DNA from: a bacterium
Lineage (GTDB): Bacteria; Zhuqueibacterota; Zhuqueibacteria; Residuimicrobiales; Oceaniaggregativiventaceae
Direction: 5' to 3'
Length of the DNA: 61,973 nt
Assembly: GCA_029565675.1 (NCBI GenBank)
Contig: JAKQNP010000033.1
Location: forward strand, 1 to 61,973
Of the stretch, positions 827 to 61,973 are shown one piece after another. A model generated the notes under the pieces. That model saw only the letters and a list, made by a program, of their open reading frames with translations. It ran no database searches and was not told the origin of the DNA. The number at the start of each line of letters is the position of its first letter. Within the stretch, counting starts at the first letter, position 1. Both the position numbers and the translations under genes were made by a program.

Positions 827-1396
827 ATCACTGCTTATCCGATTTTATCTGCCATCAGCCGTTTGGACAAAACTCGAATTCTGGGTTGACAGAATAGCAA
901 AACCGATCCGGCAATATCTTGCTGTTTGTGTCCTGTTATAACTGCCCTCAGCGCATTGCGTTCCGATTGTTTTTGGCTGATCGGACGCGGAATGCCGAAT
1001 TGAGAACAAATGAAATCAACTGCTTAAATATACCAATCCTGTGAGGATTTGCAATAGAAATATTCATGCGCAGATTCGGTGTTAACCGAATCAATTAACA
1101 TTCAATCGCTTATTCTTGATGCGGTTGAGAAAAGGGCACTTTTCACCCAACATGCTTCGCCATCAGATTGATTTTCTTTAAGATCCGGTGCTGCGCACCG
1201 AATCCGGGCATAATGGACTTTTTGCAGACAATCGGCAAAATCCCCTTGCAGCGGGAGCAGGGCGTTTTGGGGCTTGGTTCTTCTGCCTGTGAGCAGAATG
1301 GGCATCTGGTGCGCAACAGAGCGCAGAGTTGGCTTTTTTTGTTTTGGCAATCGCATCGCCGGTCCGGCAACAGTGTCAGCATTCGCGCGAAATCGA
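827..1396. other. intergenic region with a MITE copy
   Basis: This 570-base region separates the lipoprotein gene from the end of hydC. It contains one complete copy of the 140-bp miniature element (1069-1208). Otherwise I see no convincing gene. Short open frames across 1100-1420 run through the repeat and do not look coding. No clear intrinsic terminator for the hydrogenase operon is visible. Confidence 0.6.
1069..1208 (+). repeat. MITE-like element, copy 1
   Basis: This 140-bp element matches the copies at 39378-39517 (same orientation) and 59478-59617 (opposite orientation) over its whole length with few differences. Its left end reads CGCAGATTCGGTG and its right end CACCGAATCCGGG, so the ends form imperfect terminal inverted repeats. 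Each end is also a small palindrome: GATTCGGTGTTAACCGAATC on the left and CCGGTGCTGCGCACCG on the right. A short internal hairpin, GAAAAG/CTTTTC, lies in the middle. The flanking 5-mers (TCATG and CATAA) are not identical, so any target duplication has decayed. It has no coding capacity. Confidence 0.85.
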
Positions 1397-16005: not shown

Positions 16006-17640
16006 ATGGTTGACGTTACTGAAGACAGGATTTGCTATTTCGACTGTTATGCCGCTATCGGCCCGCTGCCACAGCGCGACCCCTGGTCGATTTGGAGTGC
16101 TGAACAGATCTTGGCGGCGCTGCGGCGCTGTTACATCGATGCTGCGCTGGTCTACTCGCCGCTTGCACATGCGGTTCATCCCCAGGTTGGAAATCCGCTG
16201 ATTTCGGAAATCTGCGCCAAAGAACCCTGCCTCTATCCTTGCTGGGTCGGGATGCCGGCTGCCACCGGCGAGGTTTCTCCGCCGAAAAAGTTTGTTGCCG
16301 AGATGGATCAGGCCGGCGTCAATGCGCTCAAACTTTTTCCGCGCTATCATACCTATCCTGTCGATTCATTGCATACGAGAGAATTGTTGGAGGCCCTCGA
16401 AGATGCCGGCAAACTGGTTATCTTCGACGCCGGTCAATACGGCGATGCTGTGCAGATCAGCTGGCCTGAAATCGCCTGGGTGTGTGAGGCGTTTCCTCAT
16501 CTGCATGTTTTGCTGCACGGTGTCCGCTGGGAAGCCACCCGCACCCTGGCGCCAATGATGGACCGCTATGAAAATCTCTATATCGAATTTTCCAATTACC
16601 AGGGCAATCGGATGCTCGAATTTTATTGCCAACGCATCGGCTCGAACCGGTTGTTGTTCGGCAGCGAGCTGCCGGCCAAGAGTCCGGGAGCAGCGCGTTC
16701 CTACATCGATTACGCCGAGATCAGCGCGGAGGAAAAAAAAGCGATCGCCGGCGGCAATTTGCTGCGTCTGCTCAACGCGGCTTGGCCTGAAAAAACAGCG
16801 GCGGAATTTCCTGCAGACGCGATTTCTGGCCGCGCATTGCAGGGATTGCCGATCGATGATATGGAAGTGATCGATGCCCATGCCCATATCGTGCAGAAAG
16901 GCGGGCGCGGCGCGGCGATGGTGGCCATGAACGAAGCAGACGCTGAAGCGGTTGTGCGCCGCAATCGCCGTTTGGGCGTGCAGCGCACTTGTGTCAGCGC
17001 CTGGACCGCCATCTGGAGCGATCACGAACTCGGCAATCGCGATACCTTGCAGGCGATGAAGGAACTGCCCGGCGAAATCGTCGGCTATGCCGCGATCAAT
17101 CCGCTCTATGTGCAGGATTGGCAGCAAACGCTGGTCTATTATCACCAGCTGTGCGGTTTTACCGGAATGAAGCCCTATTATCCGCGCTGGCGGATTCCTT
17201 ATAACGATCCGTTATTCGATCCCTGGTATGAATATGGGAATCGCCATCACCTCTTTTGCCTGTTGCATGCTTCGGACAATTTTACCGTCGAAGTGCGCGA
17301 TCTGGCCGCCCGATTTCCCGATATCAACTTTTTGCTTGCCCATAGCGGCGCCAGCTGGACCGCGGCGCGCAGTCAAACGGCACTGGCAAAAGAATTTCCC
17401 AACGTCTTTCTCGAAATAACGTATACATCGGTCCTTGAAGGTGTGATCGAGTATATGGTGCATGAGGTTGGCTCGGAACGGGTCTTGTATGGCTCGGATG
17501 CGCCCATGCGCGACCCCTGTCCGCAGTTTGGTTGGGTGGCATTCGCTGATTTGTCTGAAGAGGAAAAACGAAACATCCTGGGCCGCAATATGGCCCGTAT
17601 TCTGGCTCGCGTTCAGCTTCCCGGCCATTCTCAGCGCTGA
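16006..17640 (+). CDS. tandem amidohydrolase-2 fusion, N-terminal half degenerate
   Basis: A 544-residue protein made of two amidohydrolase-2-type TIM barrels in tandem. The C-terminal copy (about 285-540) keeps the metal and catalytic residues: His292 and His294 in IDAHAHI, His421 in LLHASDN, His446 in LLAHSG and Asp498 in YGSDAP. The N-terminal copy (1-275) follows the same layout but has lost them: FDCYAAIG in place of the D-x-H-x-H start, LLHG in place of AHxG, and FGSELP in place of GSDAP. It therefore looks like a pseudo-enzyme domain fused to an active one. The family performs hydrolysis or non-oxidative decarboxylation of ring or amide substrates. The 3' end overlaps the convergent UroD-like gene by 10 bases. 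Confidence 0.82.
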   Translation: MVDVTEDRICYFDCYAAIGPLPQRDPWSIWSAEQILAALRRCYIDAALVYSPLAHAVHPQVGNPLISEICAKEPCLYPCWVGMPAATGEVSPPKKFVAEMDQAGVNALKLFPRYHTYPVDSLHTRELLEALEDAGKLVIFDAGQYGDAVQISWPEIAWVCEAFPHLHVLLHGVRWEATRTLAPMMDRYENLYIEFSNYQGNRMLEFYCQRIGSNRLLFGSELPAKSPGAARSYIDYAEISAEEKKAIAGGNLLRLLNAAWPEKTAAEFPADAISGRALQGLPIDDMEVIDAHAHIVQKGGRGAAMVAMNEADAEAVVRRNRRLGVQRTCVSAWTAIWSDHELGNRDTLQAMKELPGEIVGYAAINPLYVQDWQQTLVYYHQLCGFTGMKPYYPRWRIPYNDPLFDPWYEYGNRHHLFCLLHASDNFTVEVRDLAARFPDINFLLAHSGASWTAARSQTALAKEFPNVFLEITYTSVLEGVIEYMVHEVGSERVLYGSDAPMRDPCPQFGWVAFADLSEEEKRNILGRNMARILARVQLPGHSQR

Positions 17641-39377: not shown

Positions 39378-39517
39378 CCCAGATTCGGTGTTAACCGAAT
39401 CAAAAAACATTCAATCGCTTATTTTTGATGCGGTTGAGAAAAGGGCACTTTTCACCCAACATGCTTTGCCATCAGATTGATTTTCTTTAAGATATGGTGC
39501 TGCGCACTGAATCCGGG
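39378..39517 (+). repeat. MITE-like element, copy 2, with 5-bp target duplication
   Basis: A complete 140-bp copy with the left end CCCAGATTCGGTG and right end CACTGAATCCGGG. It is flanked by a perfect direct repeat ATACA (39373-39377 and 39518-39522), the signature of transposition with a 5-bp staggered cut. It is in the same orientation as the copy at 1069. It sits in the gap between the second CotH gene (ending 39558) and the start of the GxGYxYP gene. Confidence 0.92.
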
Positions 39518-42143: not shown

Positions 42144-44237
42144 TCACCGGGTGCGCAGCATCTTGAGCAGGTAGATGTACTCCAGAGTCAGCATTTTCGC
42201 TTTTTGTTCATTGGTCACCCCCGAGCCGTGCCCGCCTTCGGTGTTTTCGAAATAGTAAAAGGGGTGTCCTTGCGCCTCCATCTTGGCCGCCATTTTGCGC
42301 GCATGGCCGGGATGGACCCGATCGTCGCGGGTCGTGGTGGTGAAAAAGACCCTGGGATAGCGCTTGTCGGCAATGAGATTTTGATAGGGCGAATATTTGC
42401 TGATGAAAGCCCACTCCTCCGGCAGGTCGGGATTGCCGTACTCTCCCATCCAGCTGGCGCCGGCCAGCAGTTTGTTGTAACGCTGCATATCCAGCAAGGG
42501 CACAGAACAGATCACGGCGTTGAAGAGGTCAGGCCTCTGGGTAAAAGCCACCCCGACCAACAGTCCGCCGTTGCTTCCCCCCTGGATGCCGAGGTGGCGG
42601 GGAGAAGTGATTTTGCGCCGGATCAGATCCTCGGCGATGGCGATAAAATCATCAAAAGCCCGTTGCCGGTTCTCCTTGAGAGCGGCCTGGTGCCACCTGG
42701 GGCCGAACTCGCCGCCGCCGCGGATGTTGGCCACGACATAGACGCCGCCTTTTTCCAGCCACGCCAGACCGTTTGTTGGTGAGTAGATGGGTCGCCTGGC
42801 GATCTCGAAACCGCCGTAGCCGTTGAGCAGAGTCGGATTGGCGCCGTTCATTTTGGCTTTTTTCGGGCGGACAACGAAATAGGGTATTTTCGTGCCATCT
42901 TTGGAGGCGACCTCGAACTGTTCCACCAGCAAGTCAGCGCCGGCAAAAAAATGCGGCAGGCTCTTGACCTTGTCGATTTTTTTGCCGTTGGCCGGGACAT
43001 AATAGAGCGAGGTCGGCGTCAGATAATTGGTAAAGGTGAAGAAATAATGATCGGAGAGATGGTCTGTGGCTGCCAGACTGATAGAGCCCAAATCAGGGGC
43101 AGCGACTTTCTCGCTGATCCAGCGGCCGTCTTGCAAGGTGTAGCGAAACAATTCGCTCACCACATTGGTCAACTTGAGGAGGAGCAAAGCGTTTCGGGTC
43201 GTGGCCACCTCCTCCAGGCTCGAGCGTTCATCGGGTTCGAAAATGACCGCAAAACTGCGCTCGCCCATCAGGAATTGGTCATAGTCGATGCTGATAAGAG
43301 AGCCCTGTCTCAGGGTTGTGCCGCCGATTGCCCAGTCGGATTTCAGATGGACCAGCATCTGGTTTTTAAAAAACCCATAGAATTGCGCATCGTCCGGAAT
43401 GTCCAATTTGACGAGTTTTTCGTTCTCCAGCACGAATGACCAGCTGGTGAAAAAGGTTATGCGGCGGGTAATGACGATGTATTGCCGTTCCGGCGTATTA
43501 ATCAATCCTCCCCCTGCCCGCACGTCGCTTTCCCGCCCTTCATAGAGGGTGCGGGCGCCGTTCAGCGGAGTGTCGCGGTGCCAGATCTTGACGATGCGCG
43601 GATAGCCGGATGTCGTGGTGCTCGCGGGGCCGAAATCGGTCGATACCAGCAACGTGTTGCGGTTGACCCAGGCGACGCTTCCTTTGGCCTGCGGTACAAA
43701 GAAACCGTTTTCGACAAATGTCTTTTTCACCAGATCGAATTCCCGCATTTCGACGGCGTCGCTGCCGCCGCGGGAGAGATAGACCATGCAGAGATCATAT
43801 GCCGGATAGAGCAAGGTGGCGCCTTTGAAGGCCCACTTTTCGCCTTCCCGGCGGCTGAGTTCATCGATGTCGAGCACGGTTTCCCAGTCCGGAGTCGCGC
43901 TGAAATAATCGGCGAGCAAAGTGCGCCTCCAGATGCCGCGCGGATGGGTTTCATCCTGCCAAAAATTATAGGCATAATCGCCGATCAGCGAGGGATAGGC
44001 AATGCGCTCCTTGCTGTTCAGCACTTGCAGGATCTTTTGGTTGAGCGGTTGATAGTCGGGATGCTTTTCCAACTCGGCAACCGTGGCGCTGCTTTTCGCC
44101 TTGACCCATTCGAGAGCCTTCTGGTCCTCGACCTCCTCCAGCCATAAAAAGGGATCGCTTTCCTCCTGGCCGAGCAGCGGGGAGACATCTAAAAGAAAGA
44201 ACAAGGCTAGAACTGCAAAAACGGCAAACATTTTCAT
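42144..44237 (-). CDS. prolyl oligopeptidase family serine peptidase (S9A)
   Basis: A peptidase of about 697 residues. An N-terminal signal sequence (VFAVLALFFLLDVSPLLGQ) predicts export. The seven-bladed propeller region follows, then the catalytic domain with Ser in GGSNGGLLVG, Asp in TRDDRVHPGHARKM and His in EGGHGSGV. It cleaves after proline in short peptides, probably in the periplasm as part of peptide scavenging. I chose the ATG at 44237 (MKMFAVF), with GGGAAG upstream; the longer reading adds a basic extension without support. The hypothetical gene at 44325 is 87 bases upstream on the same strand. Confidence 0.9.
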   Translation of the reverse strand: MKMFAVFAVLALFFLLDVSPLLGQEESDPFLWLEEVEDQKALEWVKAKSSATVAELEKHPDYQPLNQKILQVLNSKERIAYPSLIGDYAYNFWQDETHPRGIWRRTLLADYFSATPDWETVLDIDELSRREGEKWAFKGATLLYPAYDLCMVYLSRGGSDAVEMREFDLVKKTFVENGFFVPQAKGSVAWVNRNTLLVSTDFGPASTTTSGYPRIVKIWHRDTPLNGARTLYEGRESDVRAGGGLINTPERQYIVITRRITFFTSWSFVLENEKLVKLDIPDDAQFYGFFKNQMLVHLKSDWAIGGTTLRQGSLISIDYDQFLMGERSFAVIFEPDERSSLEEVATTRNALLLLKLTNVVSELFRYTLQDGRWISEKVAAPDLGSISLAATDHLSDHYFFTFTNYLTPTSLYYVPANGKKIDKVKSLPHFFAGADLLVEQFEVASKDGTKIPYFVVRPKKAKMNGANPTLLNGYGGFEIARRPIYSPTNGLAWLEKGGVYVVANIRGGGEFGPRWHQAALKENRQRAFDDFIAIAEDLIRRKITSPRHLGIQGGSNGGLLVGVAFTQRPDLFNAVICSVPLLDMQRYNKLLAGASWMGEYGNPDLPEEWAFISKYSPYQNLIADKRYPRVFFTTTTRDDRVHPGHARKMAAKMEAQGHPFYYFENTEGGHGSGVTNEQKAKMLTLEYIYLLKMLRTR

Positions 44238-44324
44238 CTTTTTCTTCCCATAGAATGATCGGTTGACTGGTTTGCTGTGCAGGTCGGTTCTGCAGAGTTT
44301 TTTATTTGACAATCTGGTTGACAC

Positions 44325-44771
44325 TCAGGCCTTCTGCAGGTATGGCAGCATTTTTTCGTACAATGGTTCCTTGACAATGAAGGTGGCCAGCGGCGGATCG
44401 CCCACTTTTAAGCGCACTGCGCGCTGCCAGGTTATCGTTGCTCTCTGCGGCGTTCCGATGTCGGTCCAGGGGATCAATACCGCCTCGTATCGGCTGAGGG
44501 AGGGTTTGACGTGCAAGTACAGCCCCTCCTGGCTGAGCCAGATATCGACGATGTTCTTGTAATGCACTGCACCGATGGCAACCGACTGTTTCTTAAAGTT
44601 TTCGCCTTGCGGAGCAGCAGCGGTCTGATACACCTTGCGCAGCTTGTCGAGGCCGCTCGTGCGGCTGAAAAGTTTGCAAAGCAACAATGAAAAGCCAAAC
44701 ACGAAAGAGATCAGTGCTGCAACCAACAGCATAGAAAATAGACCACCCGAAACCATCAGCTGATGGTTCAT
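44325..44771 (-). CDS. membrane-anchored hypothetical protein
   Basis: A 148-residue protein I do not recognise. It has one transmembrane segment near the N-terminus (LFSMLLVAALISFVFGFSLLL) and a soluble domain of about 110 residues with beta-prone segments (VDIWLSQEGLYLHVKPS, AVLIPWTDIG, ATITWQRAVRLKVG), which resembles small PH-like or DUF-type membrane proteins. It is followed by the peptidase gene on the same strand. Confidence 0.65.
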   Translation of the reverse strand: MNHQLMVSGGLFSMLLVAALISFVFGFSLLLCKLFSRTSGLDKLRKVYQTAAAPQGENFKKQSVAIGAVHYKNIVDIWLSQEGLYLHVKPSLSRYEAVLIPWTDIGTPQRATITWQRAVRLKVGDPPLATFIVKEPLYEKMLPYLQKA

Positions 44772-51518: not shown

Positions 51519-51981
51519 GTTCCACTCCTCAGACTACTCCAGAATACCCCCTACACAAGAGCGCATAACCTCGATTCGGTGCGCAGCACCGGATCTTACA
51601 GAAATTCAATCTAATCTCACTACAAAAAGGGTGAAAAATGCCCTTTTCGCAACCGCATAAAGAATGAGCGATTGATATGTATAAATTGAAATTATCTAAA
51701 CCTCGGATAATAAACAAGGAGAATCGAAAGAATTGTTGTCCGTGCAGGAATGATGGCGATCGCGGTACCATTTCATCGGAAGGCGCACGGTTTCTACTGG
51801 TGTGTTGGACTGCTGCCGCTTTCTGTCCGTGGTGAGCGTGCACGGGGATGTTGGCCGCCTGGTGGTTCGACAGATAGGCCTGGTCGATTCGGACTGTTTA
51901 GCTTTTTTCCTTGACTCCTATAAAACAAAATATTATCTATCAGTGTGATCCGTAGAATCCCGTCCCCAGACGGGACACCAA
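51519..51981. other. intergenic region with decayed MITE copy
   Basis: About 460 bases between the divergent signalling operon and a small plus-strand open frame. It contains the decayed fourth MITE copy (51569-51708) and a short hairpin with the GGTGTCC core at 51959-51979. I see no other gene. The operon promoter should lie near the right-hand part of the element. Confidence 0.5.
51569..51708 (-). repeat. MITE-like element, copy 4, decayed
   Basis: It matches the element in the same orientation as copy 3: GATTCGGTGCGCAGCACCGG at the left palindrome, then GTGAAAAATGCCCTTTTCGC in the middle, then GAATGAGCGATTGA. The right terminal palindrome is no longer recognisable. The end coordinate is estimated from the 140-bp length of the intact copies. 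It is the oldest or most damaged of the four. Confidence 0.7.
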
Positions 51982-58182: not shown

Positions 58183-58235
58183 GTGACTTTGCTAACCGGA
58201 ATACCGAGCTTTTCCTTTGTCAAACAAAGATCGAA

Positions 58236-58412
58236 TTATTCGATTTGATCGCCGGCTCTTTTTTTCAGGCTAAACTGATGGATATTCTGATACGCCTGCC
58301 CCATCGCTATCTGGATATCGCCGGTCGTCAGATTGTAAACAGAAGACCAAATCGTCCTGTCCTGGGCAACGCTTTGCAGGAGGGGCATGGCCTCGACCGG
58401 CTGCACCCCAAT
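58236..58412 (-). pseudogene. C-terminal remnant of a linear amide C-N hydrolase-type protein
   Basis: The minus frame reads about 58 codons with TIWSSVYNLTTGDIQIAMG followed by QAYQNIHQFSLKK, resembling the C-terminal end of acyl-CoA:6-APA acyltransferase or choloylglycine hydrolase-family proteins. A stop lies directly upstream in frame and there is no N-terminal part. The assignment is by resemblance of one segment, so it is tentative. Confidence 0.4.
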
Positions 58413-58615
58413 TCATCTGACCTCTTTTTTATTTTTGAAGAGTAATCAAATGCAAATTTGCCCGGAGTAAAATAAAAAAGGTCATGAATTGAATAATGAC
58501 ATCGCCAACAAAACCCTTGTCTGCAGCAATTTTTATCCTCATCGTCTTGCTGAGGTTCTATCGAAAAATAAACGATAACTATTTGCGCAAGAAAATGATT
58601 TTTATCTTGATTCTG

Positions 58616-58640
58616 CTGGTGTCCGATTACCGGACACCAG
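58616..58640. repeat. GGTGTCC-type palindrome
   Basis: Ten-base perfect arms (CTGGTGTCCG and its complement) around a five-base loop. The core matches palindromes at 33875-33905 and 51959-51979. It lies between the degraded remnant and the AbrB promoter. Confidence 0.6.
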
Positions 58641-58682
58641 TGGATTTTCCGTTGAATGTAACGTTAGCGTGCTCGATTTCTA

Positions 58683-58732
58683 TTGACACTTTTCAATAAT
58701 ATCCTTATAATCTTACTGGTAAGAATATAAGG
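58683..58732 (+). promoter_or_regulatory. sigma-70 promoter with overlapping operator for the AbrB/PIN pair
   Basis: TTGACA (58683-58688) and TATAAT (58706-58711) are separated by exactly 17 bases, a perfect consensus promoter. A 30-base inverted repeat (58703-58732) covers the -10 box and continues to the ribosome binding site. Its arms are CCTTATAATCTTAC and GTAAGAATATAAGG, with one mismatched position and two central bases. This is the position expected for autoregulation by the AbrB-type antitoxin. The ribosome binding site AAGGAGG follows directly. Confidence 0.85.
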
Positions 58733-58743
58733 AGGAGAATATC

Positions 58744-59001
58744 ATGTCAACGATAGAAACGACAAAAATGTCCTCAAAAGGCCAGGTTGTTATTCCGGAA
58801 ACCATTCGTAAGAAACTCGGTCTCAAAGCCGGATCCCAATTCATTGTTGTCGGTGACAGAGATGTGGTCATTCTCAAGTCAATCGAACCGCCTTCGATGA
58901 ACGAGTTTGATGAAATACTTGACAAGGCCAGAACACAGGCGCGTATGGTCGGCTTATCAGAGTCCGATATTCATGAAGCGATAAAAAAAGCCAGGGGATA
59001 A
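58744..59001 (+). CDS. AbrB/MazE/SpoVT-type antitoxin
   Basis: An 85-residue DNA-binding protein of the swapped-hairpin AbrB family. The N-terminal domain TTKMSSKGQVVIPETIRKKLGLKAGSQFIVV contains the standard KGQVVIP signature. The C-terminal half, ending SESDIHEAIKKARG, is the toxin-neutralising part. In such pairs the protein represses its own promoter alone or with the toxin; the overlapping inverted repeat upstream fits this. The PIN toxin gene starts two bases after its stop. The start follows AAGGAGGAGAATATC. Confidence 0.92.
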   Translation: MSTIETTKMSSKGQVVIPETIRKKLGLKAGSQFIVVGDRDVVILKSIEPPSMNEFDEILDKARTQARMVGLSESDIHEAIKKARG

Positions 59002-59003
59002 AA

Positions 59004-59408
59004 TTGAGGATCGTACTGGATACCAATGTTCTGATTTCAGCCATTTTTTTCTCCGGTCCGCCTTATAAAATTTTGAAAGCCTGGAAAGAAAAGCATATCC
59101 AGTTTATCATTCCTGCAGAAATTTTTGACGAATATGTTCGCGTCGCTGAAAATCTGTCACGTCAACATGCAGAAATTGATATTTCTGAAATATTGAATCT
59201 TATTGCCATGCATTCAGAAATCGTTCAACCAGTTGTCATGAAAACACAGGTATGTTAGGACAGAGATGATGATAAATTTATCGCCTTTGCGTTATCGGGA
59301 GAGGTTGATGTGATTGTCAGCGGTGACAATCACTTGCTTGCATTAAATGGATTCAAAGGAATTAAAATCATAAAGCCGAAATCGTTCTTCAAGGAGTATT
59401 TATCATAG
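59004..59408 (+). pseudogene. PIN-domain toxin with in-frame amber stop
   Basis: A PIN-family RNase toxin (PIN_3 type, vapC-like), interrupted. It starts at a TTG and reads MRIVLDTNVLISAIFFSGPP with the first acidic residue Asp6, then a Glu in IFDEYVRV. Codon 85 is TAG (59256-59258), inside the conserved VC-x-DxDDDKF motif. Beyond it the same frame stays open as DRDDDKFIAFALSG and VIVSGDNHLL to a final stop at 59408, keeping the remaining acidic residues. A single nonsense change is the simplest reading, so the toxin is probably inactive. The alternative is UAG readthrough or an assembly error. The antitoxin remains intact. Confidence 0.85.
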
Positions 59409-59410
59409 CA

Positions 59411-59637
59411 TGCTAACCAGCGTATGCACCGGATGCCGCCCTTGCAGCCCAATCCCCCCGCAACGGCACTGGTGATACCCGGATTCGGTGCGCAGCACCG
59501 GATCTTAAAGAAAATCAATCTGATGGCAAAGCATGTTGGGTGAAAAGTGCCCTTTTCTCAACCGAATCAAGAATAAGCGATTGAATGTTTTTTGATTCGG
59601 TTAACACTGAATCTGGGTGATACGCAAGACGTTATGC
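59411..59637 (+). other. integron attC site 1, interrupted by MITE copy 3
   Basis: The left arm, GCTAACC then GCGTATGCACCGGATGCCG (59412-59438), pairs imperfectly with the complement of the right arm, GCGTATCACCAGTGCCG, which ends at GTTATGC (59631-59637). A 140-bp MITE lies inside the right arm, with the duplicated TGATA. Removing the element and one duplicate gives an 82-bp attC. The extra A after CGG in the left arm is the extrahelical base seen in all four sites. It belongs to the AbrB/PIN cassette and its recombination point is the G/TT in GTTATGC. Confidence 0.75.
59478..59617 (-). repeat. MITE-like element, copy 3, with 5-bp target duplication
   Basis: A complete 140-bp copy in the opposite orientation to copies 1 and 2, with left end CCCGGATTCGGTG and right end CACTGAATCTGGG. 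Perfect direct repeats TGATA flank it (59473-59477 and 59618-59622). It is inserted in an integron attC site. It contains a short open frame on the minus strand that is shared with the other copies and is not coding. Confidence 0.93.
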
Positions 59638-59649
59638 ACTGGAGAACAT

Positions 59650-59997
59650 ATGATCATTAAGCACGAAGAAATCGAACCAATCGAATTTGATAAACTTGAA
59701 ATTATCGATTATACAGCAGGGCAAGACAGTAGCTCCTCGTTTGCTGAGATTACAGTCCCTATAGGTGTAAGTCATAAAATTTCTTGGTCGAATCGTTCAG
59801 ACAAATACTACTATATTAGCAGGGGGAATGTAAATTTCACCGTAGATGAAGAATCATACTACCTTACACCCGGTGATGTATGCATCATCCCAAAAGGACA
59901 TCGTTTCAGTTACAAAAATACCGGTTCGACTGAGGCTGTATTAATTTTAGTTCATACGCCAAGTTTTAGATTAGAATATGAAGTGTTTGTGGAATAG
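59650..59997 (+). CDS. cupin-domain protein (cassette gene)
   Basis: A 115-residue single-domain cupin. It has a jelly-roll pattern with SHKISWSNRSDKYYYISRGNVNFTVDEE and the second motif PGDVCIIPKGHRFSYKN. The first cupin motif lacks the usual HxH histidines, so metal binding is uncertain. It starts at the ATG after GGAGAACAT, 13 bases after the GTTATGC recombination point, and is followed directly by attC site 2. It is therefore the gene of one integron cassette. No promoter is seen, so expression would depend on upstream cassettes or the array promoter. Confidence 0.87.
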   Translation: MIIKHEEIEPIEFDKLEIIDYTAGQDSSSSFAEITVPIGVSHKISWSNRSDKYYYISRGNVNFTVDEESYYLTPGDVCIIPKGHRFSYKNTGSTEAVLILVHTPSFRLEYEVFVE

Positions 59998-59998
59998 T

Positions 59999-60072
59999 GC
60001 ACAACAATGCAAATTAGCACGGATGCAAATTCCGCTGCGCTCCATTTGCACCGGTTATTTGTGGTGTTATAC
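59999..60072 (+). other. integron attC site 2
   Basis: A 74-base site directly after the cupin stop, ending at GTTATAC (60066-60072), the R' core. The left arm starts GCACAAC. The arm segment CGGATGCAAAT on the left pairs with the complement of the right arm, CGGTGCAAAT, except for an unpaired A after CGG. It ends the cupin cassette and opens the next one. Confidence 0.78.
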
Positions 60073-60119
60073 TTGGTAATAGTGAATCACATGCATATAG
60101 AGTTCGGGGAAATAGTTAA

Positions 60120-60718
60120 ATGATCTACTCTTTCTCTAAAAATCAGATCAGCTTGGCAGTATTGTTGATTTTATCGGTTATAGCCAATCCTGTTTTTGGC
60201 TGGGCGAATGAAGAATCATCTTCTTGGTTTAGTATTTTATTGGGCGTTAATCCTGATAATTTTAAAAAAGATAGAAACGCAAATGGTTCTGGTCTCACGA
60301 TAGGTTTGATCTATTCACGCCAGAGATTATTTAAAGATATGATAACGTTCCGAATACTGCGTTCGGCTGAAGTGGGATTTGTTCCTATCGCTGATACTAA
60401 TTATCCTTATGAATCTTTAAACGAAGTTTCTCTTTTATATGGAAGATTCATCAGCCATAAAAATATCCACATATCGGGATCCATTGGGCAAGTTTCGTTG
60501 CTGGAATTAATCGTGGAAAATGGATCGGAACAATAGGGATAGAATCCTATGAATGTGAAAGATTACCGTACTATAGTATTGGAATACCGGTTGCATTTCA
60601 AATAAACTCAAATGCATCAGGATCTTGTGGTATAGGTCTTCAACTGTTTGGGAATTACAATAGAAAACAACCAATTTTTGGACTTGCATTCTTGATCAAA
60701 TTCGGCAAGCAAAAATAG
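60120..60718 (+). pseudogene. outer-membrane-type protein with one-base deletion (cassette gene)
   Basis: A signal-peptide-bearing protein of unknown family. The first 122 codons (signal ending VFGWA, then SRQRLFKDMITFRILRSAEV and EVSLLYGRFISHKNIHISGS) are read from an ATG at 60120. At the GGG codon at 60486-60488 the frame shifts. One added G restores a continuous frame, with GASFVAGINRGKWIGTIGI at the junction and LFGNYNRKQPIFGLAFLIKF near the end, to a stop at 60718. The repaired protein of about 199 residues has the alternating beta pattern and aromatic ending of a small outer-membrane barrel. It is the single gene of its cassette. Confidence 0.8.
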
Positions 60719-60743
60719 GTTCCCATGCTCAATCAATAATGAG

Positions 60744-60840
60744 GTATAACGTATTGCTTCAGCGGATTGAAACGCTGGAAAATTTAAATTTGACGGCAAG
60801 TTCAGCAAAAGCGTTTCAACCGCTGAATATGGTGTTATGA
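60744..60840 (+). other. integron attC site 3
   Basis: The clearest of the four sites, 97 bases. It starts GTATAAC (R'') and ends GTTATGA (R'). The left arm CAGCGGATTGAAACGC pairs with the complement of the right arm, CAGCGGTTGAAACGC, with a single unpaired A after CGG. The central loop is AT-rich. It closes the cassette of the frameshifted outer-membrane protein. Confidence 0.88.
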
Positions 60841-60898
60841 TCACTCATTTGAGCAGGCCAGGTTATCCTGAATATGTGGATGAGTTGAGGTAATTCTT

Positions 60899-61213
60899 TC
60901 AGGCGAGGGCGATGATACCGGCGAGTTCCTGGCGGCTTGTTCCCAGTACGAGCAGGGATTTGATGAGAAGATCGATAGATACCGACGGATCGCCGGCTTC
61001 CATTTTGGCTACGCGGGACTGATTGGATTTTAAAATCCTTGCAAGTTGTATCTGTGTCAGCTCCTTTTCGAGTCTGCGTTTTTTGAGATTTTGGCCGAGT
61101 GTGAGCTTGAGTTCGATATAGGCCGTTTCGTCATCGGTGAGGCCGAGAAAGTCCTGGGTTGAGCCAACAATCCAACCCTGATCTTTTAATTTCTTTGTTT
61201 TGGCTTTATCCAT
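60899..61213 (-). CDS. HigA-type XRE-family antitoxin (cassette gene)
   Basis: A 104-residue DNA-binding protein with a helix-turn-helix (LTLGQNLKKRRLEKELTQIQ, then ILKSNQSRVAKMEAG) of the XRE type. It lies 22 bases downstream of the toxin gene, the toxin-first order typical of HigBA. I chose the ATG at 61213 (MDKAKTKK); a longer reading overlaps the toxin gene. It neutralises the toxin and likely represses the pair's promoter. The gene runs opposite to the attC orientation, as is common for cassettes with their own promoter. Confidence 0.9.
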   Translation of the reverse strand: MDKAKTKKLKDQGWIVGSTQDFLGLTDDETAYIELKLTLGQNLKKRRLEKELTQIQLARILKSNQSRVAKMEAGDPSVSIDLLIKSLLVLGTSRQELAGIIALA

Positions 61214-61235
61214 GATTGATTCCCTGTATTCAACG

Positions 61236-61568
61236 TTAAATAGAACCATAAAACTTGATTCGGTTTTGACAAAGTTCGATGATCTGTTTGGGTGTTCTGG
61301 CCGTTTTTTTATCAAAGACATGTAAGATGACGATCGCGTCCGGATCGATTCTGTAGACGATTCGCCAGGTCACCTTTTTATCATTGATACGCAATTCGTA
61401 GCATCGGGGTCCGATGATTGGCATGGGGCGGGCGTGCGGCAGGATCAGAGTCTCGCCCAGCTGGAGTTTTCGCAGCAAAAAGCCGGCTTCGAGGCGCGCA
61501 CCCGGTGAAAATGGCGGTGATTTGAGCTCGCCATGCAACCAGACAAGTGGTTTGTCATCAGAACTCAT
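61236..61568 (-). CDS. HigB-type (RelE/Gp49-like) toxin (cassette gene)
   Basis: A 110-residue toxin of the RelE superfamily, Gp49-like/HigB branch. Typical segments are ELRINDKKVTWRIVYRIDPDAIVILHVFDKKTARTPKQII with conserved Lys/Arg and Tyr residues that cleave ribosome-bound mRNA. The antitoxin gene follows after 22 bases. It lies entirely between attC sites 3 and 4 and is read on the opposite strand to the cassette orientation. Confidence 0.92.
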   Translation of the reverse strand: MSSDDKPLVWLHGELKSPPFSPGARLEAGFLLRKLQLGETLILPHARPMPIIGPRCYELRINDKKVTWRIVYRIDPDAIVILHVFDKKTARTPKQIIELCQNRIKFYGSI

Positions 61569-61577
61569 GTTTTTAAT

Positions 61578-61605
61578 TTATGTCAGATTAGACATAAAAG
61601 CAAGA
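61578..61605 (-). promoter_or_regulatory. promoter and operator of the HigBA cassette
   Basis: On the minus strand TTGCTT (-35) and TAAATT (-10) are separated by 17 bases. A perfect inverted repeat, TTATGTC and GACATAA with a six-base spacer (61578-61597), overlaps the spacer and -10 box. This is a plausible binding site for the HigA antitoxin. It lies just upstream of the toxin start at 61568. Confidence 0.65.
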
Positions 61606-61657
61606 AGCTTTTTTTGTTTCTTACTGTATGGTACTATACTGTTTGCGCTACAATGGA

Positions 61658-61779
61658 TCATAACAATCGTGTCGAGCGGATGGCCATGATCTCGTTGCTT
61701 ACTAGATTTTTATTCGGTACTAAAACTGTTGGCTTTTCGGATATAATTAAGTGGCCACCGCTCACACGCATCGTTATGT
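61658..61779 (+). other. integron attC site 4
   Basis: A 122-base site starting TCATAAC and ending GTTATGT (61773-61779). The left arm GTGTCGAGCGGATGGCC pairs with the complement of the right arm, GTGTGAGCGGTGGCC, with an unpaired A after CGG and few other mismatches. It ends the HigBA cassette and begins the cassette that contains the RelE gene at the window edge. Confidence 0.87.
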
Positions 61780-61801
61780 GGTAGATTCTGTGGGCAGGAA
61801 A

Positions 61802-61973
61802 TTATCGATAGGCATCTTTTCGGTGGGAAATGCGCAAGATGAGAACGGTATCATGGCGGAGGGTGAAAATAACCCGGTACGGTCCGATCCGATATTTTCG
61901 CAGGCCCTTAAACTTACCTGTCAGCAGGGGGACCTTATCGGCTTTTTCAATGAGTTCGGATTCGATTTTTTCG
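61802..61973 (-). CDS. RelE/ParE-type toxin, partial
   Basis: The last 172 bases encode the C-terminal 56 residues of a RelE-superfamily toxin on the minus strand. It reads from KIESELIEKADKVPLLTGKF through LRKYRIGPYRVIFTLRHD to ILRISHRKDAYR and a stop at 61802-61804. The RKYRIGPYRVIF and HRKDAYR segments are hallmarks of RelE. The start lies beyond the right edge. It falls directly after attC site 4, so it is part of the next cassette and again runs opposite to the cassette direction. Confidence 0.88.
   Translation of the reverse strand, partial: EKIESELIEKADKVPLLTGKFKGLRKYRIGPYRVIFTLRHDTVLILRISHRKDAYR

Follow-up and report, generated by a model that had tools for sequence, protein, structure and literature searches.

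Does a run of small genes separated by attC-like sites at the end of a bacterial contig represent part of an integron and, if so, where is the integrase that would have assembled it? We addressed this question in the genome GCA_029565675.1 (G000; family Oceaniaggregativiventaceae, phylum Zhuqueibacterota), which comprises 4.43 Mb in 64 contigs and is 95.1% complete and 1.13% contaminated. The window, i.e., the whole stretch of 61,973 nucleotides that was analyzed, is an entire contig (JAKQNP010000033.1; C43), and the array lies at its end, where four attC sites bound cassettes A to D and the contig end cuts a fifth cassette, E. We conclude that this array is very probably a cluster of attC sites lacking an integron integrase (CALIN), in which integron cassettes are fixed in the chromosome with no integrase nearby or, according to the assembly, in the host genome. 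By definition, a CALIN has no intI and comprises at least two attC sites spaced by less than 4 kb; such clusters are regarded as degraded integrons (PMC9024848, PMC9668308). On C43, the four sites of the array fall within 2.4 kb; by covariance model, three are above background, and no integron integrase adjoins the array on the contig. The CALIN is real and decaying, and it adds one more example of an element class already known, in a little-studied bacterial group.

The first-pass annotation had placed attC sites at 59411, 59999, 60744, and 61658. These starts proved exact to the base, and an R'' box ending in AAC and an R' box of the form GTTATNN are present at every site. All four sites lie on the plus strand: attC1 at 59411-59637 (R'' TGCTAAC at 59411, R' GTTATGC at 59631), attC2 at 59999-60072 (R'' GCACAAC at 59999, R' GTTATAC at 60066), attC3 at 60744-60840 (R'' GTATAAC at 60744, R' GTTATGA at 60834; weak by model, with a strong hairpin), and attC4 at 61658-61779 (R'' TCATAAC at 61658, R' GTTATGT at 61773). 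attC1 spans 227 nt because a 140-bp miniature inverted-repeat transposable element (MITE) sits within its arm; minus the insert, it measures 82 nt. The sites have the architecture of attC, with R''/R' boxes carrying AAC...GTT, an unpaired spacer, L''/L' arms, an extrahelical base, and a variable loop, attC1 doing so in full only when the MITE is removed. All four fold as attC-like hairpins on a single strand, and three of them, as well as 9 of the 10 order-mate sites compared, have an extrahelical A at position 23 of the site.

We scored the sites with two covariance models, for which the attC arms were aligned separately because MAFFT misaligned whole attC sites; the E-values are rough. Model R1 was built from seven attC sites of the order-mates G016, G009, and G020, with none from G000, and model R2 from 14 attC sites, including attC4 and four from other contigs of G000. 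On the window, R1 gave 41.0 bits for attC4 (E = 3e-9), 20.2 bits for attC1 (E = 0.003), and 15.5 bits for attC2 (E = 0.064); this model is weak on length, missing attC4 with filters off and finding it with the default filters. R2 with default filters gave 59.8, 30.9, and 27.8 bits for attC4, attC2, and attC1, respectively, and did not find attC3. In an unfiltered R2 search of 58183-61973 only, the four sites ranked first, all on the plus strand, with 59.8, 30.9, 27.7, and 16.0 bits. In 145,277 bases of control DNA, including 50 kb of Escherichia coli, R2 with default filters had no match at E ≤ 10. The covariance test that the first-pass annotation had proposed, carried out here with our own models, put three sites above background and left attC3 weak, rather than leaving all four below threshold. 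A simple hairpin score was highest for attC3 (32.7) and attC4 (31.8), values that were never reached when the region was dinucleotide-shuffled 200 times (none ≥31), and the score of attC2 (25.9) was matched by 2 of the 200 shuffles; scores of at least 26.5 were absent from positions 1-58182 of the window. An Rfam scan at the gathering threshold gave no matches.

Comparison with the sibling genome G014, which belongs to the same genus based on 89-90% identity in the ADP-ribosylglycohydrolase gene flanking the array, supports that the cassettes behave as units. Cassette D (60834-61776) is found at 86% identity on contig C240 of G014, and the homology extends from the GTTATGA of attC3 to the GTTA of attC4. 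In that location, the preceding attC is a different site (63.1 bits), RhuM and Fic-family genes lie upstream, and a gene for a Por_Secre_tail secreted-type protein lies downstream; moreover, the G014 copy of attC4 is without 27 nt of the left arm, and the alignment shows an 11-bp gap in its toxin gene. A homolog of cassette E on contig C276 of G014 begins at the identical GTT and is terminated by an attC4-like site (25.2 bits), directly before which lies a diverged MITE copy identified by both of its ends. Relative to G014, GTT thus bounds cassette D at both ends and cassette E at its left end; the left end of cassette A comes close to this pattern, the copy in the family relative G012 being without the GTT. 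Because the homology in G014 begins at the GTT crossover beside other neighbors, we infer from these alignments that cassettes D and E move or have moved as units. The comparison of neighbors in relatives called for by the first-pass annotation therefore revealed the same cassettes next to different genes rather than an invariant arrangement, and two congeneric species hold one cassette in differing surroundings. Homologs of cassette A followed by an attC site are present in G016 (C6) and G002 (C30). Array DNA was matched in 10 of the 21 other order genomes, in some over part of one gene only, and among 20 homolog loci (18 distinct places), an R2 match with E < 0.05 lies near the homolog at 6 places.

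The window encodes no IntI, as the first-pass annotation had stated, and neither TIGR02249 nor PF00589 matched C43 at E ≤ 0.001. The genome-wide search for intI that it had suggested did return one integrase, on a contig that appears foreign: across the bin, TIGR02249 identified a single IntI on C48 (485.9 bits; cut-off, 265), the next best match scoring 84.5 bits. C48 consists of 3,499 bases with genes for a ComM fragment, a Band 7 protein, a GFA protein, and IntI, and its end upstream of intI has, by eye, a GTTAGGAG motif together with a gene start. The ComM fragment, encoded by the first gene, is 73% identical to ComM of two genomes reached via Arenimonas loci, 56-70% identical to that of seven further genomes reached via Xanthomonadales loci, 51% identical to the host ComM encoded on C25, and 47-60% identical to that of other order or class genomes (18 of 19 genomes matched; the sibling G014 gave no match). 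In a tree of 59 IntI rows, comprising C48, 31 host-phylum rows, and every third locus among the best 80 of 180 from Gammaproteobacteria, the C48 IntI is sister to the 27 gammaproteobacterial rows (99/90). A tblastn search of the integrase loci with the remaining two C48 genes yielded no match and is uninformative. Because two unrelated genes agree and the host has a separate ComM, we read C48 as contamination, and these similarities indicate that it is probably a Lysobacteraceae contaminant contig; it may also derive from recent transfer. The C48 integrase as the host's own is disfavored by the Lysobacteraceae-like ComM and by the position of the IntI in the tree. With the bin's only integrase on a foreign-looking contig, an automatic call of a complete integron for the host would probably be wrong.

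The contig end does not account for the missing integrase. In the order-mate G016, a complete layout is present, with intI on the minus strand (C6:483091-484035) and plus-strand attC sites to its right at 486944-498278. Because all four attC sites on C43 point in the plus direction, as in G016, intI and attI are expected to the left of the array. This side lies inside the window and carries the chromosomal ADP-ribosylglycohydrolase gene, a terminator-like hairpin (58612-58644, plus strand) just left of the array boundary, and then GTTAGCG at 58663-58669 (plus strand), the putative left crossover of cassette A; homology to G012 (86%) starts at 58665. In front of the first cassette, the hairpin search found no attC-type hairpin, and unfiltered R2 (58183-61973) gave no attC match above 5 bits left of 59411. 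Thus, where a complete integron would have intI next to attI and a first cassette, the left flank holds a chromosomal gene followed by a hairpin. Because the expected side is inside the window, the lack of an integrase is biological and no contig-end artifact. Of the two origins left open by the first-pass annotation, the CALIN stands, and the tail of an array begun elsewhere does not, as the side expected to carry intI is within the window and has none. C43 itself is native to the host, as it carries MITE copies and homology to the sibling; MITE copies also sit on C4, C31, and C62, and for this reason we consider all four contigs native.

The MITE within attC1 (59478-59617, plus strand), which was missing from the first-pass description of this site, is short, has terminal inverted repeats, is flanked by a 5-bp duplication (TGATA), occurs in many copies, and contains no transposase gene. 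The family has at least 43 matches in G000, 39 of which cover at least 134 of the 140 positions at 81-100% identity; this count is a lower bound, as scoring covered 40 of 151 candidates. Duplications of 5-6 bp flank many of the 30 copies inspected. In G012, the corresponding cassette end is free of the MITE and aligns across the joined flanks, and its R'' box has decayed; the locus is therefore a clean case of an attC split by a MITE, with a MITE-free relative for comparison. In folding calculations for the bottom strand with DNA parameters, the MITE lowers pairing of the outer arms from 0.64 to 0.12 (R) and from 0.97 to 0.17 (L), and the inner stem persists (0.98 to 0.81); the outer-arm pairing with the MITE is no better than that with 100 shuffled inserts (L mean, 0.21) or with 100 inserts taken at random from the window (0.39). 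When RNA parameters are used instead, the outer arms remain paired (R, 0.96; L, 0.97), in agreement with the RNA minimum-energy fold on the arms, and the inner stem is gone (1.00 to 0.06). Hence, the energy parameter set decides which part of attC1 is disrupted, and some of the hairpin is lost under both. Because part of the hairpin is lost with either set, the modeling suggests that attC1 is likely to be impaired, in which case cassettes A and B would be tied to each other. Other MITE copies in the window are at 1071-1208 (minus strand), 39378-39517 (minus strand), and approximately 51573-51645 (plus strand, partial). The family, of ∼140 bp and ∼40 copies in G000, is also matched in G014 (C84 and C276).

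Several observations weigh against reading the array as a CALIN. R1 did not detect attC3 and is marginal for attC2, and R2 gave attC3 its 16.0 bits only with filters off, a score that is equaled by an unrelated stretch at 16627-16659 (R1, 16.0 bits, E = 0.048; R2, 16.5 bits). The left boundary of the array is without a recognizable attI or attC, and G012 has CC where the boundary of cassette A has GT. The IntI of G076, from the host phylum, branches next outside C48 and the gammaproteobacterial group, and the tree alone can therefore not prove that C48 is foreign. Finally, intI could lie in an assembly gap, because the genome is 95.1% complete and in 64 contigs. A rival view is that these are no attC sites but hairpins formed by chance, or terminators, separating genes unrelated to one another. 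Indeed, the hairpin score alone is not specific, because 50 kb of E. coli gives four hits of at least 26.5, and attC3 is accepted on its hairpin, its position, and the cassette boundary at its GTT, because its model score is no better than that of the background stretch. For the array as a whole, chance hairpins are ruled out by the R1 and R2 scores of attC4, attC1, and attC2, the lack of matches in 145 kb of controls, the extrahelical A at position 23, and homology blocks with boundaries at GTT, and we attach almost no weight to this explanation.

Two further scenarios accept the sites and differ in where the integrase is. The array could belong to a complete chromosomal integron with intI in an assembly gap or on C48, so that a working integron is hidden. 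The full IntI on C48 with the upstream motif and gene start, the complete integron in G016, the gaps in the genome, and the position of the G076 IntI adjoining the C48 group all fit this idea; nevertheless, the array adjoins the conserved ADP-ribosylglycohydrolase gene on precisely the side where intI would be, the ComM on C48 is Lysobacteraceae-like and the host has another one, and the family mates G012, G013, and G014 have no IntI at E ≤ 1e-60, making a hidden integron improbable. Alternatively, the cassettes could still be mobile, having entered as single insertions at chromosomal attG-like sites via an integrase acting in trans from neighboring cells, with no resident integron. Cassette insertion at attG has been described (PMC12901181, citing Loot et al. 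2024), and consistent with it, the left ends at 58663 and of cassette E on G014:C276 consist of GTT without a preceding attC hairpin, attC sites are dispersed over C43, C4, C31, and C62, and attC matches occur in all four genomes of the host's family, none with a native IntI found. The same picture would, however, result from ancestral loss of the integrase and chromosomal rearrangement, and the search for an empty site was negative: at E ≤ 1e-6, none of the 21 other order genomes matched the 480 bp to the left of 58663. Neither an empty site nor a right end is traceable, because the Ldh_2 gene, which follows the glycohydrolase gene in G014, is located on C2 in G000, next to a gene for a large repeat protein and without an R2 match. 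Altogether, we regard insertion in trans as unlikely, yet worth keeping in view. More doubtful is an extension to the entire family, in which cassettes, mostly toxin-antitoxin, are kept or exchanged without an integrase through supply in trans, landing in chromosomal sites and attC sites, with the MITE locking some of them permanently.

We favor the CALIN and infer that an IntI tyrosine recombinase, since lost or from another cell, inserted the cassettes via the folded bottom strand of attC. The array is in decay: a resident MITE entered the arm of attC1, two genes have broken, and attC4 of the sibling has lost its left half. Self-addiction could allow the toxin-antitoxin cassettes, including cassette A with a consensus promoter of its own, to persist.

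The sedentary chromosomal integrons of Xanthomonas and Vibrio have intI, attI, and long arrays; they share attC architecture and toxin-antitoxin cassettes with the array on C43, which differs in having four unlike attC sites and no intI. Mobile elements at integron sites include, in addition to the introns mentioned below, IS1111-attC elements. Compared with the published CALIN class (PMC9024848, PMC9668308), the C43 array has the same spacing and the same absence of intI, and it differs in the MITE inside one attC, in the reversal of the last two cassettes, and in a host group for which we found no integron report. Known integrons are over-represented in Proteobacteria (PMC9024848). For KSB1, Calditrichota, Zixibacteria, Latescibacterota, or candidate phyla, we found no integron or attC report in the open-licence literature, which is weak evidence of absence. 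A close parallel is provided by Halorhodospira halochloris, which has a toxin-antitoxin-rich CALIN in a genome without any intI (PMC7923331). Both arrays have mobile elements in or beside them and a frameshifted toxin gene; in H. halochloris the elements are group II introns and an IS200/605 element, group IIC-attC introns being known mobile elements at integron sites, as opposed to the 140-bp MITE in an attC arm on C43 (PMC7923331). MITEs and integron cassettes also coincide in a Tn402-like integron of Acinetobacter johnsonii, in which MITEs truncate both integron ends rather than lying within an attC (PMC3934969).

The gene content of the array is as follows. Cassette A contains a sigma-70 consensus promoter (TTGACA-17-TATAAT, 12/12; 58683-58711, plus strand), both boxes of which are readable in the G012 homolog; the region has 14 promoter-like sites against 9.1 expected, and no other one matches 12/12. 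It is followed by genes for an AbrB/MazE-type antitoxin (58744-59001, plus strand) and a PIN-domain toxin (TIGR00305; 59004-59408, plus strand) with an in-frame stop at 59256-59258. In the six matching relatives, the PIN homologs read through in G001 and G020 and are broken by stops or frameshifts in G002, G007, G016, and G019. Cassette B encodes a small cupin protein (59650-59997, plus strand), with which a plasmid search returned eight distant records. Cassette C encodes a putative exported or envelope protein without a family match (60120-60718, plus strand); its frame shifts near 60500 by eye, with no homolog for comparison, and a plasmid search with this protein gave no match. The broken PIN and envelope frames had not been noted in the first-pass annotation. 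Cassette D encodes an HTH antitoxin (HigA-like; 60899-61207) and a Gp49/HigB-like toxin (61236-61568), and cassette E a RelE/ParE-family toxin whose gene is cut by the contig end (61802-61973). The first-pass view that the genes share the orientation of the attC sites thus applies to cassettes A, B, and C; HigBA (60899-61568) and RelE (61802 to the end) are on the minus strand, against the attC direction.

Integron components are found well beyond this array. With at most 150 candidates scored per genome, R2 attC matches (E ≤ 0.001) occurred in 16 of 22 order genomes and in 12 of the 18 that were not used in the model. IntI exceeded the cut-off in 7 of the 22 order genomes and, across the phylum, in 35 of 82, each count including C48, and in 34 of the 81 phylum genomes other than the host; among the IntI-bearing contigs counted, the contamination check covered C48. 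A group with widespread attC sites and its own integrases is thereby added to the integron map. The genome G007 has an intact IntI gene amid chromosomal genes (C455; L141 14391-15392) with no R2 match in 18 kb, i.e., an integrase-only locus. G015 has 16 attC matches on 15 contigs, three within 210 bases of a contig start, and these are perhaps one long array fragmented in assembly. In G000, further attC sites are present on C4 (two), C31, and C62, and weaker matches occur on two other contigs, C5 and C49. On C4, a lone HigB/HTH cassette (43792-44617) lies between two attC sites that score 70 and 71 bits with R2, which was partly trained on them, and 50 and 44 bits with R1, which was not; to its left, on the other strand, are genes for a ParE-type toxin and a Phd/YefM-type antitoxin. 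The single attC site on C31 (L154 5986-6060) lies ∼1.7 kb downstream of a phage-type tyrosine recombinase gene and an HTH_17 gene, and by eye its loop looks similar to the attC2 loop.

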